DNA from: Bacteroidia bacterium | GTDB taxonomy: Bacteria > Bacteroidota > Ignavibacteria > SZUA-365 | Direction: 5' to 3' | Length of the DNA: 64,000 nucleotides | NCBI GenBank assembly: GCA_027493955.1 | Contig: JAOSJT010000001.1 | Location: 2,901,131 to 2,965,130 of the forward strand | Shown: positions 38,899-45,484 of the stretch, piece by piece | Numbering within the stretch: the first letter of the stretch is position 1 | How the letters are laid out: every line of letters starts with the position of its first letter | The notes under the pieces: model-generated | Told to the model about the DNA's origin: nothing | Databases searched by the model: none | The model's input: the letters and a program-made list of their open reading frames with translations, nothing else | Translations under genes and position numbers: made by a program

Positions 38899-40236
38899 AT
38901 GGTTACCGTACTGATCCCTCTTCTTATCGCAGCTGGTCTCGCCGTCGGGCGTATGCACGCAACATCGGCGGAAGAGATACTTCCGTTTCGTTTCACCGAG
39001 TACCGCCTCGAAAACGGTTTGCGCGTCATTCTCATTCCCCGCCCGGGAGGCGGGCTCATGACCTACTACAGCATCGTGCGAACGGGAAGCAGAGACGAGG
39101 TCGAGGAAGGCACGACCGGCTTTGCGCATTTTTTCGAACACATGATGTTTCGCGGCTCGAAAAACTTTCCCGCAGCCAGATACGACAGCATGATTACGAC
39201 CATGGGCGCAAATGCCAACGCCTACACCACGGACGACTACACCGCTTATCACCTGTCCTTTGCGAGCGAGGATCTGGAGACGGTGGTCATGCTGGAAAGC
39301 GATCGCTTCCAGTTTCTTGCGTACGACGAGGAAGCATTTCAAACCGAAGCTGCGGCGGTATACGGCGAGTATCGCAAAGGCAGAAGCGATCCGTGGGAAT
39401 CTCTCTCCGAAGCACTGCACCGAACCGCGTACGACCAGCATACCTACCGGCATACGACCATCGGTTTCGAGGCGGACATCAAAACCATGCCAGGGCTGTT
39501 CGAATACAGCAAAGAGTTTTATCAACGTCATTACCGACCCGAAAACACCGTCCTGCTGCTCACCGGCGATTTTGACCCCGAAGAAGCGCGCTCACTGATC
39601 GATACATACTACGGCTCATGGCCATCCGGATATGTCGAGCCGGCCATCCCCGCGGAGCCCGAACAGCGCCAACGGCGTCGCGTGGATGTGACCTATGATG
39701 GCCAGACCCAGCCGCTTCTGGCTGTTGCGTGGATGGGGGAGGCTCTGAAGCCCTCCAGTAAACGCATGGCGGCGGGACACATGCTCGGCGAGTGGCTTTT
39801 TGGCGAAGGAAGCGCCCTGTATAAAAAACTGGTTCTCAAAGAGCAAAAAGTCCGGCACCTGGCTGTGGATTTCGGCTTGAATCGGGATCCCGGACTCTGG
39901 AGCGTGATGGCCAGCGTGAAGGATAAGAGGGACATCCGCTATGTGTTGTCGGAAATCGAAAAAACTGTTGCACTCTCCATACAAACAGCTCCTGCAAAAG
40001 AGGATCTCACACGGCTCAAGCGCCGGCTTCGTTACTCGTTTCTGATGGAGCTGGACACACCGGATCACATCGCCGCCAACCTCGCGCGCTATGCAGGGAT
40101 AACGGGCGGTATTGACGCCGTCGAGCAGCTCTTCGCCTGCTATGCGGATGTGACGGCGACCGACCTGCGCGATGCCGCCTCCGCGCTGCTCGGGAAAGAG
40201 CGGAGTACGATAGCTGTCCTGACCGGGAGGAGATGA
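38899..40236 (+). CDS. M16-family zinc metallopeptidase (catalytic)
   Basis: The 445-residue protein has an N-terminal signal or anchor (MVTVLIPLLIAAGLAVG). The inverted zinc motif HxxEH is present as HFFEH (77-81), and the distal glutamate lies in EAAAVYGEYRKG about 75 residues later. Family blocks TGFAHFFEHMMFRGSKNFP, YTAYHLSFASEDLE and HYRPENTVLLLTGDFDPEE follow. It is a periplasmic or secreted processing peptidase of the pitrilysin/PqqL type. The next gene, starting 1 bp after the stop, encodes a second M16 chain without the metal motif, so the two likely form a heterodimer like other two-gene M16B systems. Confidence 0.92.
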   Translation: MVTVLIPLLIAAGLAVGRMHATSAEEILPFRFTEYRLENGLRVILIPRPGGGLMTYYSIVRTGSRDEVEEGTTGFAHFFEHMMFRGSKNFPAARYDSMITTMGANANAYTTDDYTAYHLSFASEDLETVVMLESDRFQFLAYDEEAFQTEAAAVYGEYRKGRSDPWESLSEALHRTAYDQHTYRHTTIGFEADIKTMPGLFEYSKEFYQRHYRPENTVLLLTGDFDPEEARSLIDTYYGSWPSGYVEPAIPAEPEQRQRRRVDVTYDGQTQPLLAVAWMGEALKPSSKRMAAGHMLGEWLFGEGSALYKKLVLKEQKVRHLAVDFGLNRDPGLWSVMASVKDKRDIRYVLSEIEKTVALSIQTAPAKEDLTRLKRRLRYSFLMELDTPDHIAANLARYAGITGGIDAVEQLFACYADVTATDLRDAASALLGKERSTIAVLTGRR

Positions 40237-40237
40237 C

Positions 40238-41740
40238 ATGTCCTCTTACGTCCGGCCGCTGGCGAAAATGATACTGTCTGCGATTCTGCTTGCGGGTTGT
40301 ACCCCTCCAGCATCCGAACACCTTATCCCGTTCCCCGATAAGGATGATCCCATCGTGTCGTTACGACTGTGGATCAAGACCGGATCGCAGTGCGACCCGA
40401 CAGGCAGGGAGGGGCTCGCCGCACTTACCGCCGCAATGCTGACCCGGGCCTCGACAAAGGTGCATTCGTATTCGGAGATACTCGATCTCCTCTATCCCAT
40501 GGCTACGTCGTATCAGGCGACGGTGGATAAGGAGATGACGGTAATTACCGCGAGAGTACATGTCGACAATCTCGAGGAGTTCTATCCGCTGCTGATCAAC
40601 GCTGTTCTGCATCCGGCGCTTCTCGAGGATGACTTCAGGAGAATTCGTACGGACATGATCAATGCGATAGAAAAAGGTCTGCGGTACTCCGACGACGAAG
40701 AACTTGGCAAGGCGGCCTTGCACACATTTGTTTTCGAGGATACACCGTACGCACATCCTGTCGTCGGTCGCGTGGCGTCGTTGAAAAAAATCACCGTGGA
40801 CGATGTCCGTTCATTCTACAAGCGTTGGTACACCGGAGACAACATCGTGATCGGCATCGCAGGCGGCTATGATGATGCGCTGATCGAACGTCTCCAGCTC
40901 GATATCGCCAAGCTTCCGGTCGGAGCGCCGACACCGCCGGGGATGCCCGCACCGAATGAGATTCAGGGGCTGCAATTCCTTCTGGTGGAAAAGGACTGCA
41001 AAGCCACGTCCATCAGCATGGGCGTCCCCATCGACGTGCTGCGCGGGCAGGACGATTTCTGGCCGTTATTCCTGTTCAATTCCTGGTTTGGTGAACACAG
41101 AAACTCTTCTTCACATCTGTATCAGGTACTACGGGAAGCGCAGGGCATGAATTACGGCGCATATTCATATATCGAGTTCTTTCCGAATGGCGGCCACACG
41201 CACATGCCAACCCCGAATCATGCACGCCGTCAGCAGTTGTTTGAGATATGGCTGCGACCGGTGCGGCATGAACACCGGCATTTCGCGCTTCGTGCCGCGC
41301 TGCGTGAATTGCAGATGGCCGTGGATAGCGGTATGACGCAGGAACAGCTCGATCTCACCAAGCGCTTTCTGGATAAATACGTTCGTCACTATGCCAAAAC
41401 CGCCTTCGATCGCCTCGGCTACGCCATGGACAGCAGATTCTACGGATTACGAGGCGATTATCTCGATGTATTGCGTAAGCGCTTGCGGCGGGTGTCTCTT
41501 GACGAGGTGAATACCGCCATACGAACGTATCTTCAACCCGCGAACCTGAAAATCGCCGTAGTGACGAAAGGCGCACGCGCATTCGCGGACTCATTGGTGA
41601 CCGATGCGCCGAGTCCCGTTATCTATGACGCTCCCAAGTCCGTGAAGGTCATCGAGGACGATGCCTTCATTCAGGTGTATCCCCTCGCTGTGCGCCGGGA
41701 GAACATACGCATCGTTCCAGTCGGACAGATGTTCCGCTGA
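40238..41740 (+). CDS. M16-family lipoprotein, non-catalytic partner
   Basis: The 500-residue protein has a lipoprotein signal peptide ending LLAGC (acylated Cys about 21). It carries M16-like folds (VSLRLWIKTGSQCDPTGREGLAALTAAMLTRAS; FYKRWYTGDNIVIGIAGGYDDA), but the HxxEH position reads GLAAL and the zinc ligands are absent. It also has the C-terminal M16 region with EAQGMNYGAYSYIEFFPNGG. As in M16B pairs, it probably supplies the substrate-binding half to the catalytic chain encoded just upstream. The lipid anchor may fix the complex to a membrane. Confidence 0.87.
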   Translation: MSSYVRPLAKMILSAILLAGCTPPASEHLIPFPDKDDPIVSLRLWIKTGSQCDPTGREGLAALTAAMLTRASTKVHSYSEILDLLYPMATSYQATVDKEMTVITARVHVDNLEEFYPLLINAVLHPALLEDDFRRIRTDMINAIEKGLRYSDDEELGKAALHTFVFEDTPYAHPVVGRVASLKKITVDDVRSFYKRWYTGDNIVIGIAGGYDDALIERLQLDIAKLPVGAPTPPGMPAPNEIQGLQFLLVEKDCKATSISMGVPIDVLRGQDDFWPLFLFNSWFGEHRNSSSHLYQVLREAQGMNYGAYSYIEFFPNGGHTHMPTPNHARRQQLFEIWLRPVRHEHRHFALRAALRELQMAVDSGMTQEQLDLTKRFLDKYVRHYAKTAFDRLGYAMDSRFYGLRGDYLDVLRKRLRRVSLDEVNTAIRTYLQPANLKIAVVTKGARAFADSLVTDAPSPVIYDAPKSVKVIEDDAFIQVYPLAVRRENIRIVPVGQMFR

Positions 41741-41927: not shown

Positions 41928-44231
41928 ATGACCACCCATGATGTGATTCTCAAACCTGAACGCGTGCGCACCGTCGCGGATATAGGCGCCGACAACCGCT
42001 GCATCGTTATTGCGGACAGCGCGTTGCCCGTGGACGTCCTGCGCGCACTGCCGAATCCTTTGCTGGTACGTGCGGGAGAGGAGTTGAAGACGCTCCATTC
42101 TGTCGGCGATCTTGCCTCCGAGGTTTTACGCCGGAGGTCATCGCGACCGATGACCCTTGTGGCTGTCGGAGGCGGATCTGTCGGTGACGCGGTGGGCTTT
42201 CTTGCGAGCATTCTGTGGCGCGGCGTAGAGCTGTGGCATGTTCCTACGACGCTGATCGCCATGGTGGATTCCGCGCACGGAGGAAAAACCGCCGTCAATC
42301 TCGGTGAGGCAAAGAATCAGCTTGGGACCTTCCATCTGCCCTCAAGAACGATCATCGTTGAACAGCTTGTCGAAACCCTGTCGCACGATCTGCGCCGCGA
42401 AGGTATGGCTGAAGTGCTCAAGGCGCTCTGGCTCGGCGATAGCGACGCCGCCCGCGCACTCGATCCGTTCGATGTGGAACGCTGTGTGTACGCGCCGGGA
42501 CAGGAAGCCGCAGCAGTCCTCTTCCCTCTGCTCGAAAAGGCCATTGCCGTCAAGCTTCGTATCGTCCGGGAAGATGTCCGAGAGGAGCGGGGGATTCGCA
42601 CGGTGCTGAATCTTGGACACACAGTGGCCCATGCGCTGGAGCTGACCGCCGGGCTGCGACACGGAAACGCCGTCGCATGGGGTCTTGCAGCCGCGCTGCG
42701 CTTCTCGTCCGAATTCGGGCTCCCGCCGGATGACCTGGGGCTCATGCAAAAGCAGCTCTTTTCCTTGCTCCTTCCCCTTCAGCAACTACCGGAAAGATTC
42801 GCCCTTCTCGGAGCAATGAGCCGCGATAAGAAACATGTCCACGACCAGCTCCGCTCCGTGTTCCTGCAGCGGCTGGGACAACCGATAATCCGTACGGGAA
42901 TATCGGCATCGGAATGGATAGACGCTTTCCATGACGCATACCGGACATTCATCCATCACCCCATCGAGGTTCGGCAGTGCACGCAACGCGCCGTACGCAT
43001 TACCGCAGAAGCCGGGAAATCGGAACTGAACCGGGCTCTGATCATAGCGGCACAGCGTATCGGCAAAACCACCATAGTCGGCCGCAGCAGCGCGGACGAT
43101 GTGCGTTCCATGGTGACTGCGCTCCGCGCTCTCGGTTATCCTCTGCAAGAAACGACCGACGGATTCTGTGTTGATAACCTCAATCGCGGCCTGGAACACT
43201 ATGATGCCCCGGAGCTGCGACGCATCAACGCGGGTGAAGGCGGTACAACGTTCCGCTTCCTGACGGCATTGGCCTGCACGTCATCGAAACCCACAAAAAT
43301 CATCGCCGCAGACCGTTTGCTCGAACGGCCGCACGAAGCCCTGTTCCGCTCGCTGCGCAGTGGCGGAGCAGACATCCGGCCCTTCGACGACAGCAGCGGT
43401 CGCGGCATCGTCGTCACCGGCTGGAAGGAAGCGCCTGCGATGTTTTCGGTGGAGGCCGATCAATCCTCACAATTCGCCTCGGCGATCGCACTGCTCTCCG
43501 TGGGTATGGAGCATCCGTTCACGTTGCGGCTGCTTTCGACGCCGGTCAGTGCACCGTATCTGGACATGACACTGCGTATGCTGCGCACGGCTGGTGTGGA
43601 CATCATCGCGCATGGAGACCTCATCGCCTTCAATCAGACAGAGCGTCTGAATGAAGCTCTGTCGCTCAGCATCGAGGAGGATGCCAGCTCCGTCGCCGTG
43701 TGGCATGCTGCCGCAGCGCTCGGGCATCCCCTACAGCCTTCGATACCCGGCACCGACTCCCGGCAGCCGGACAGCGCGGTCGGTGAACTACTCGCCCGTC
43801 TGCGCAACGATGTCGCCTCCGAGCTGCCTTTGACGTTAACCGACACCCCGGACCTGCTCCCCGTACTTGTCGCCGTCGCCATTCGCTTGCGACGCCGGGT
43901 GCGCTTCACCGGCCTGCAGGCCTTGCGGCACAAAGAATCCGACCGTCTCGTCGTATTTGCCGACACACTTACCGCGGCGGGCGTCGTTGCCCGTGTGGAG
44001 GGTGACGCATTGCTCATTGATGGCGCAAGCTCAAGCATCCCGCGCGGGGCAAGAATACGCACCTTCGGAGATCATCGCATCGTGATGGCCGCCGCATTAC
44101 TGGCGGGTGATGATACGCCGCTGATCATCGATCATCCCTCGAGTATCAGCAAATCGTATCCCTCTTTCTGGAACGATGCACGACGGGCCGGCTGGAGCCT
44201 GCGGCCGCATTATGACGGAGTTGCCGAATGA
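41928..44231 (+). CDS. bifunctional 3-dehydroquinate synthase / EPSP synthase fusion (AroB-AroA)
   Basis: One uninterrupted 767-residue frame contains two shikimate enzymes. Residues 1 to about 340 are 3-dehydroquinate synthase: NAD-binding GGGSVGD (81-87), VPTTLIAMVDSAHGGKTAVN, KNQLGTFHLP, and metal ligands Glu162 (REGMAEVLK), His231 (LGHTVAHALE) and His245 (LRHGNAVAWG). Residues about 348-767 are EPSP synthase: AGKSELNRA (362-370), AGEGGTTFRFLTA (435-447), DQSSQFASA (511-519), Asp642, RHKESDR (667-673), GDHR (714-717) and SKSYPSF. All recognised catalytic residues are present in both halves. The order equals the first two domains of fungal AROM. No ribosome site is visible. The next gene overlaps by 4 bp. 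Confidence 0.93.
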   Translation: MTTHDVILKPERVRTVADIGADNRCIVIADSALPVDVLRALPNPLLVRAGEELKTLHSVGDLASEVLRRRSSRPMTLVAVGGGSVGDAVGFLASILWRGVELWHVPTTLIAMVDSAHGGKTAVNLGEAKNQLGTFHLPSRTIIVEQLVETLSHDLRREGMAEVLKALWLGDSDAARALDPFDVERCVYAPGQEAAAVLFPLLEKAIAVKLRIVREDVREERGIRTVLNLGHTVAHALELTAGLRHGNAVAWGLAAALRFSSEFGLPPDDLGLMQKQLFSLLLPLQQLPERFALLGAMSRDKKHVHDQLRSVFLQRLGQPIIRTGISASEWIDAFHDAYRTFIHHPIEVRQCTQRAVRITAEAGKSELNRALIIAAQRIGKTTIVGRSSADDVRSMVTALRALGYPLQETTDGFCVDNLNRGLEHYDAPELRRINAGEGGTTFRFLTALACTSSKPTKIIAADRLLERPHEALFRSLRSGGADIRPFDDSSGRGIVVTGWKEAPAMFSVEADQSSQFASAIALLSVGMEHPFTLRLLSTPVSAPYLDMTLRMLRTAGVDIIAHGDLIAFNQTERLNEALSLSIEEDASSVAVWHAAAALGHPLQPSIPGTDSRQPDSAVGELLARLRNDVASELPLTLTDTPDLLPVLVAVAIRLRRRVRFTGLQALRHKESDRLVVFADTLTAAGVVARVEGDALLIDGASSSIPRGARIRTFGDHRIVMAAALLAGDDTPLIIDHPSSISKSYPSFWNDARRAGWSLRPHYDGVAE

Positions 44232-45484
44232 CAAAATCCTTCACCGAGTATTATGATGAGGAACGCCGCCGCTCGTCGGGTCAGCCTGCGCGACTTCCGC
44301 CCGGTAGCTGCGTCACGCCCGATGGAAGACGCTGCCGCCTTTGCCACGCTCCTTCCATGGAGTATGCGAAGGAGCTGAAGGTGAAAGACACGGCCTTCCG
44401 GCGCTTTTGGGCCTCCTTCGCATCGGAAAACGTCGTGGACAGGCTGCGACCATCCCCTTCGGGTCGCGGATATCGCGTGGTCACGAAGCGCAAGGTGCAC
44501 GTGACACGCGCCGGTTTCTCCATGGGCTTGATCGATCCTGTCGGAAGGAAGCTGCTCGATGTTGACAGTTGTGCTATCGAACCCGCGTCGCACGCCGCGC
44601 TGTACGCACGCATTGCCGCATTGTTACGACATCGCGCCGCGAATCCGTTGGTCGCGGCGCTGCAATACGTCATACTCAAAGGCAACTACGAAACGACAGC
44701 GGTCATTTTCAATCTCTCGGAAATTTCCCAACACGCTGTCAAGGCTGCGAACACCGTTTCCAAACTGCTGACGCGCGAGTTTCCTTCGGTACAGGGAGTG
44801 TTCCTTTTTGAAGATGACAGTGGCGACCGCTATTACATGGGGGGGAACACCGCAGCGGCGGCGGCATTCCGTCGACTCTACGGTGAACGTGAAATCTCTC
44901 TGCGCATGGATGATCTCCGTCTGGTTTACGATGTACAGGCGTTTTCCCAGGTGAATCTTTCCGTCATGCCTACGTTGCTCGCCACAGCACGGGAGATGCT
45001 CGGCCAGCGCGGTGCCTCGCTCTTCGATTTGTACAGCGGGTACGGACTTTTTTCGATCGGACTCGCTTCGGGTTACTCCGTGGTACGCGGCCTCGAGGTG
45101 TCGCAGCAGGCCGTTGCTTCCGCCATGAACAACGCGCGCCGGCTCAAGCTCTCTCATGTCCGATTCAATCGCTCAGATATTTCCCCGGAAAGTCTGATCC
45201 GTACCTTACCCATGCTCGGACCAGACGACGCTGTCGTGATGGATCCCCCGCGCAACGGTGCGGCCGATGGGGTGATCGAGGCTGTGGCGGACAGAGGGCC
45301 GGGGCGAATTCTGCATGTATTCTGCAACACCGAGCGTCTCAAACCCGATATTGCCGCATGGGCGCGTTGCGGGTATGCCGTGCGCCGCGCGATTCCGGTC
45401 GACAATTTCCCGGGGACCGACCATCTGGAAGTTTTGCTGTTGCTGACACCGGAGCAGCGGAGACACAATGACACGGCACACTGA
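44228..45484 (+). CDS. TrmA/RlmC/RlmD-family RNA (uracil-5-)-methyltransferase-like protein
   Basis: The 418-residue protein has the class I methyltransferase core with motif I LFDLYSGYGLFSIGLA (about 264-279). The substrate motif AFSQVN, DPPRNG, the catalytic-cysteine motif VFCNTE and the terminal base motif DNFPGTDHLEVL with its Glu all fit 5-methyluridine methyltransferases. The N-terminal TRAM domain is missing, and the usual 4Fe-4S cysteines are reduced to CRLCH. The target, tRNA or 23S rRNA, cannot be decided. It overlaps the shikimate fusion gene by ATGA and is probably translated with it. Confidence 0.83.
   Translation: MTKSFTEYYDEERRRSSGQPARLPPGSCVTPDGRRCRLCHAPSMEYAKELKVKDTAFRRFWASFASENVVDRLRPSPSGRGYRVVTKRKVHVTRAGFSMGLIDPVGRKLLDVDSCAIEPASHAALYARIAALLRHRAANPLVAALQYVILKGNYETTAVIFNLSEISQHAVKAANTVSKLLTREFPSVQGVFLFEDDSGDRYYMGGNTAAAAAFRRLYGEREISLRMDDLRLVYDVQAFSQVNLSVMPTLLATAREMLGQRGASLFDLYSGYGLFSIGLASGYSVVRGLEVSQQAVASAMNNARRLKLSHVRFNRSDISPESLIRTLPMLGPDDAVVMDPPRNGAADGVIEAVADRGPGRILHVFCNTERLKPDIAAWARCGYAVRRAIPVDNFPGTDHLEVLLLLTPEQRRHNDTAH

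Follow-up and report, generated by a model that had tools for sequence, protein, structure and literature searches.

The fused gene and its active sites

A single open frame on the plus strand of the window (the whole 64 000 nt stretch of DNA that was analysed) runs from an ATG at 41928 to a TGA at 44229–44231 with no internal stops and encodes a 767 aa protein. This CDS (41928..44231) was annotated as a predicted bifunctional AroB–AroA protein (3-dehydroquinate synthase and EPSP synthase, AroBA) on the basis of the open frame, Pfam, NCBIfam and full-length conservation in the family and in the Myxococcota. Pfam domains were detected in the order DHQ_synthase (residues 46–154, 3.7e-32), DHQS_C (159–302, 6.4e-24) and EPSP_synthase (358–749, 1.3e-47), and the best NCBIfam families were aroB (240 bits) and aroA (219 bits). 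An earlier note on this DNA had described one uninterrupted frame holding two shikimate enzymes in the order of the first AROM domains, and both statements hold. The curated cut-offs of TIGR01357 (aroB, 305 bits) and TIGR01356 (aroA, 287 bits) were not reached by either domain, indicating that both are divergent; the aroB match was also truncated N-terminally, beginning at profile position 54.

The AroB core (residues 45–325, 42060..42902, plus strand), delimited by the HMM envelope and the NCBIfam start, has a shorter N-terminal part than single AroB proteins. It is followed by an inter-domain junction (residues 326–355, 42903..42992, plus strand) without a long linker, as seen in a junction alignment of 28 bacterial fusions and two AROM proteins, and by the AroA (EPSP synthase) domain (residues 356–750, 42993..44177, plus strand), placed by HMM envelope, Pfam and fold match. 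The best fold match of the AlphaFold model of AroBA (pLDDT 86.5, pTM 0.87) was AROM (PDB 6hqv), spanning both domains, and the AroA domain matched the EPSP synthases of E. coli and Vibrio with TM 0.82–0.85 (normalised by target). AroBA was the sole AroB and the sole AroA found in the closed window genome (a single 5.24 Mb contig), where a second match to the AroA profile was weak (40.7 bits) and is probably MurA. Two M16-family peptidase genes lie in tandem immediately upstream (38899–41740). Downstream, according to the ORF calls, the fusion overlaps via ATGA with an RNA (uracil-5-)-methyltransferase-like gene (44228..45484, plus strand), which is not a shikimate gene and is possibly translationally coupled to it.

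Thirty-eight active-site or motif positions were compared in a residue table across the 28 bacterial fusions and AROM; in the bacterial fusions they were kept with few exceptions, mainly in one Myxococcota copy (L045). The NAD, metal and substrate residues of AroB were all present in the window protein (D114, K120, K129, N130, E162, K165, K209, R224, N228, H231, H235, H245, K301 and K302). In the motif DSAHGGKTAVNLGEAKN (residues 114–130, 42267..42317, plus strand) A116–H117 replaces the usual S–V/I, so that the fusions carry DSAHGGKT as against the usual DSSxGGKT, and D114, K120, K129 and N130 were invariant among the Bacteroidota copies. Catalytic E162 and K165 (42411..42422, plus strand) were kept in 28 of 28 bacterial fusions and in AROM. 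The metal and substrate site formed by R224, N228, H231, H235 and H245 (42597..42662, plus strand) showed a replacement of N228 by E in L045.

The shikimate-3-phosphate and PEP site of AroA was likewise complete (K364, S365, R369, R467, S513–Q515, Y544, D642, K669, E670, R673, H716, R717 and K742). K364, S365 and R369 of the KSELNR motif (residues 364–369, 43017..43034, plus strand) were invariant in the 28 fusions and AROM; K669, E670 and R673 of RHKESDR (667–673, 43926..43946, plus strand) were kept except in L045; and D715, H716 and R717 of GDHR (714–717, 44067..44078, plus strand) were invariant. Most fusions have Glu at the position of E. coli Asn94. The residues named in the earlier note (E162, H231 and H245 of AroB and these three motifs of AroA) are thus all in place, and the 767 aa protein is a real AroB–AroA fusion whose two active sites are predicted from their residues to be intact.

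Residue 439 of the AroA domain, the position of E. coli Gly96, is Ala in some Myxococcota fusions; going by the title of PDB entry 1mi4, the G96A change renders the E. coli enzyme glyphosate-insensitive. L045 (L045:5989-8226) is a second AroBA copy of the Myxococcota genome G101 and, carrying K120Q, N130D, N228E and R673C, looks like a degenerate paralogue in which several catalytic residues have been replaced. In two other genomes (L136:1351-3501 in G212 and L137 in G179) the AroBA copies are very divergent, carrying a DSSIGGKT motif and an AroA part that is shortened and of uncertain activity.

Distribution of the AroBA fusion

Among 100 relatives scanned, AroBA occurred as a single frame in all 12 genomes of the family (window genome included) and in one genome of the sister family, one of these copies being cut by a contig end; the homologues in these 12 further genomes of the order shared 48–56 % identity with the window protein and, apart from the cut copy, were full-length. 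It was not found in the third family of the order (G013–G015). These three genomes also lacked detectable AroB, shikimate kinase, AroC and chorismate-binding enzymes, with a DAHP/KDO8P-type synthase still present, which indicates that the pathway is missing there and not rearranged. The remaining members of the class have AroB and AroA as single proteins. No further AroB–AroA fusion was detected across 395 Bacteroidota genomes; two families (f32 and f45) that appeared to carry one proved to have adjacent, separate aroB and aroA genes.

The earlier note had proposed searching bacteria for the same domain order, and a scan in which each species was represented by one genome returned AroBA from Ignavibacteria/Bacteroidetes MAGs and, unexpectedly, from Myxococcota, namely Lujinxingiaceae, ‘Myxococcales’ MAGs and the isolate Lujinxingia vulgaris TMQ2 (Bradymonadales). 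Bradymonabacteria have been assigned to the Myxococcota (PMC11509652). About 20 of 284 Myxococcota genomes (Bradymonadales and relatives) carried the fusion, with 38–46 % identity to the window protein and as one frame of ~740–790 aa where no contig end cuts it. This distribution rules out a fusion confined to the window genome, and the AroBA fusion is an old event common to two phyla, not a local one. A single-chain bacterial AROM was looked for by open-frame lengths in 395 Bacteroidota and 284 genomes of the phylum of G101; none was seen, with no frame above 1100 aa among the matches listed for the ~780 genomes searched with AroBA.

A second fusion and the route to chorismate

Where the remaining enzymes are, a question raised by the earlier note, was answered by a shikimate-kinase search, which identified in the same genome an AroK–AroD–AroE fusion (AroKDE) of 618 aa (C1:3613735-3615591, minus strand), its domains arranged as in the second half of AROM. 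AroKDE frames of ~590–690 aa were present in the family of the window genome and in Myxococcota. Pfam detected the kinase and the shikimate dehydrogenase N-domain and gave no match for the dehydroquinase (AroD) domain. The middle domain possesses E213, R215, R234, H275, the Schiff-base K308 and R349, which we take to be the type I dehydroquinase signature. All six were invariant in the 12 sequences compared, as were the catalytic positions of AroKDE as a whole, and the putative AroD assignment rests on these residues, the modelled fold and position. The AroE domain is divergent and below the NCBIfam cut-off. The best fold matches of the AroKDE model (pLDDT 88.6, pTM 0.89) were AROM (6hqv), Candida Aro1 SK–DHQD–SD (7tbv) and plant DHQD–SDH; the AROM domain orientation was not reproduced (TM 0.3), so the fold match is by domains. 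In the AroKDE-bearing genomes examined there was no type II dehydroquinase and, apart from short weak matches, no second AroE candidate. As judged from residues and models, the two chains jointly hold the five predicted AROM activities in AROM order (B–A / K–D–E).

DHQ synthase is step 2 of the pathway and EPSP synthase step 6, and AroK, AroD and AroE are steps 5, 3 and 4. AroBA would accordingly be expected to catalyse steps 2 and 6, and AroKDE, encoded elsewhere directly before aroC, steps 5, 3 and 4. For step 1 there is a B. subtilis-type DAHP synthase (TIGR01361) and for step 7 AroC, so that the seven steps to chorismate would be supplied by four polypeptides. In the window genome the AroC frame starts ~10 bp downstream of AroKDE, and AroBA lies ~0.67 Mb from AroKDE, a distance at which a physical complex is not implied. 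The genes are clustered as AroKDE–AroC–AroBA in G001, G004 and G012 and as AroBA–AroKDE–AroC in the Myxococcota genome G100, and G101 has a DAHPS–AroBA–AroKDE–AroC operon with overlapping starts.

Other shikimate arrangements were seen in the Myxococcota phylum. A locus in G365 (L138:424-5121) encodes an AroK–AroB fusion with DSAHGGK, AroA and AroC as separate proteins, and an AroD–AroE-like frame that is divergent, and is possibly a pre-fusion or rearranged relative. A locus in G262 (L143:1486-4176) encodes an 896 aa AroD–AroE–AroA fusion followed by AroC.

The DAHP synthase gene adjoins menaquinone genes both in the window genome (UbiE/MenG, MenE, MenC, MenA, MenB, MenD–MenH and isochorismate synthase) and in L. 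vulgaris (MenA, MenD, isochorismate synthase and MenB confirmed). The MenD–MenH protein of the window-genome cluster is an 894 aa fusion (L211:12044-14728, G000 C1). Prephenate dehydratase was not found in 10 of 10 genomes of the order (window genome included) or in six of eight Myxococcota, with 14 of 14 controls positive; G101 has prephenate dehydratase together with chorismate mutase/prephenate dehydrogenase. Only two chorismate-binding enzymes were identified in the window genome, isochorismate synthase and a PabB-like enzyme adjoining an aminodeoxychorismate-lyase-like gene. The latter scored almost equally as PabB (329.6 bits) and as TrpE (325.8 bits), so a tryptophan branch may also be present. 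The position of the DAHP synthase beside men genes and the lack of a detectable prephenate dehydratase suggest that most of the chorismate in the window genome probably ends up in menaquinone and folate rather than in phenylalanine. In Bradymonabacteria the tryptophan, tyrosine and phenylalanine pathways have been reported to be incomplete (PMC7460792). In L. vulgaris AroBA, AroKDE, AroC and a DAHP synthase were all present, and the core pathway as far as chorismate appears intact there, apparently to supply menaquinone and folate.

Relationship to AROM and origin of the fusions

The AROM architecture has been described from fungi and protists. The fungal and protist proteins (Aro1; PDB 6hqv, 7u5s) resemble AroBA/AroKDE in their five activities, domain order and short AroB–AroA junction, and AROM was the top fold match of both bacterial chains. 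They differ in that AROM is one chain, whereas the bacterial system has two separate frames, AroBA with 767 aa and AroKDE with 618 aa, so that the order DHQS–EPSPS–SK–DHQD–SD is found only across two chains; the bacterial domains are also divergent and separate from AROM in the AroB and AroA trees. AroK–AroB fusions (PRK13951, PRK14021), exemplified in Herbaspirillum (PMC7311316), share a fused AroB with the window protein and differ in their kinase partner and domain order; the window protein scored far below their cut-offs (134 of 560 and 124.5 of 565 bits). It was also far below the cut-offs of the AroA–cytidylate kinase and TyrA–AroA fusions (PRK11860, PRK14806), in which EPSP synthase has other partners. 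Plant DHQD–SDH (TM 0.55 to AroKDE) and bacterial AroD–AroE fusions have the arrangement of the AroD–AroE part of AroKDE without AroK. A literature search, with most subscription journals outside it, returned nothing on bacterial two-chain AROM systems or AroB–AroA fusions.

Separate AroB and AroA trees including AROM, as the earlier note had suggested, placed AROM outside the bacterial-fusion clade in both cases; the sampling covered two fungal AROM sequences and single enzymes from few phyla, and PDB sequences were limited to the stretch matched in the search. In the AroB tree the fusions of both phyla formed one clade (96/90), which the AroB of the L138 AroK–AroB protein joined (100/98), and AROM fell among single bacterial AroB proteins behind a 100/98 branch. 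Forcing AROM together with the fusions was rejected by the AU test (p 0.009); with the long-branched L138 inside the held clade the result was not significant (p 0.079). The AroA fusions also formed a clade (98/94), with AROM adjoining E. coli and the forced grouping rejected (p 0.011). In the AroE tree, built on 151 columns, the bacterial AroKDE proteins formed one clade (100/99), and AROM was not separated from the fusions. The Bacteroidota fusions were a clade in the concatenated tree (98/100), in which Myxococcota as the source were neither supported nor excluded. Fungal AROM as the closest relative was unsupported by profile scores and by either the AroB or the AroA tree.

The reading that we consider likely is that AroBA is an active bifunctional enzyme forming half of a two-chain AROM-like system with AroKDE, assembled once in bacteria and most likely independently of AROM. 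The domains, residues, gene content, distribution and trees were observed directly; catalysis, co-assembly, the metabolic rationale and the independent origin are inferred from them. After a single assembly the fusion would have moved between the Bacteroidota order and Bradymonadales-type Myxococcota, in either direction. That AroBA or one of its domains is non-catalytic, with a structural, regulatory or redundant role, is very improbable: the domains are divergent and below curated cut-offs, and catalytic residues have been lost in the L045 paralogue, but no other AroB or AroA was found in the closed genome, which retains AroC, AroKDE and DAHP synthase, and the catalytic residues are kept across two phyla. 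The chance that a frameshift or assembly error joined adjacent genes, a possibility raised in the earlier note together with absence from relatives, is negligible. Separate adjacent aroB–aroA genes do exist in other Bacteroidota, but the full-length single frame recurs in ~30 independently assembled genomes belonging to two phyla, which rules out such an error as well as chance.

Common ancestry with eukaryotic AROM, whether AROM reached eukaryotes from such bacteria through a joining of the two chains or was acquired by bacteria from a eukaryote and then split, is quite improbable. In its favour, all five domains occur in AROM order across the two chains, a partition and order expected by chance in ~1 in 120 cases if all arrangements were equally likely; AroBA (A1) aligns to AROM in a single stretch across the junction; and neither the AroE tree nor the AroB test including L138 separates the two. 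However, aroB and aroA genes stand side by side elsewhere, and AroD–AroE units occur in plants and L138, so this order is less improbable and the true odds are better than 1 in 120. With two fungal AROM sequences sampled, common descent was not supported for AroA or for AroB, although the AroB test lost significance once L138 was included. In profile scores the AroB and AroA domains are at least as close to monofunctional bacterial enzymes as to AROM domains, and AroE scores 70 bits with Aquifex AroE as against 36 with AROM. Because the AroB and AroA fusion clades stand away from fungal AROM (AU p ~0.01), assembly of the bacterial fusion independently of AROM is favoured by these sequence comparisons. 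Of the two origins offered in the earlier note, an independent event is thus favoured, albeit as an old one common to two phyla, and a relic relevant to AROM origins is not supported.

Within the preferred reading of one independent bacterial assembly, the best supported picture is that AroBA and AroKDE would be two active multifunctional enzymes whose dosage is set by fusion and which may associate; the fusion would keep the stoichiometry constant and might bring the enzymes close together. That the chains form a stable two-chain particle, a functional bacterial AROM of independent origin whose order is structurally or kinetically favoured, seems rather unlikely. The two-chain bacterial system, found in two phyla and a cultured isolate, is a second case of the AROM domain order. 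It allows one to ask whether the non-pathway order of AROM (steps 2–6–5–3–4) is a historical accident or a constraint, a separate origin, if so, making the reason for that order testable, and it bears on whether the role of fusion is channelling or just a constant dosage. The system is relevant to annotation too, as domains lay below curated cut-offs and the AroD domain was missed by Pfam.
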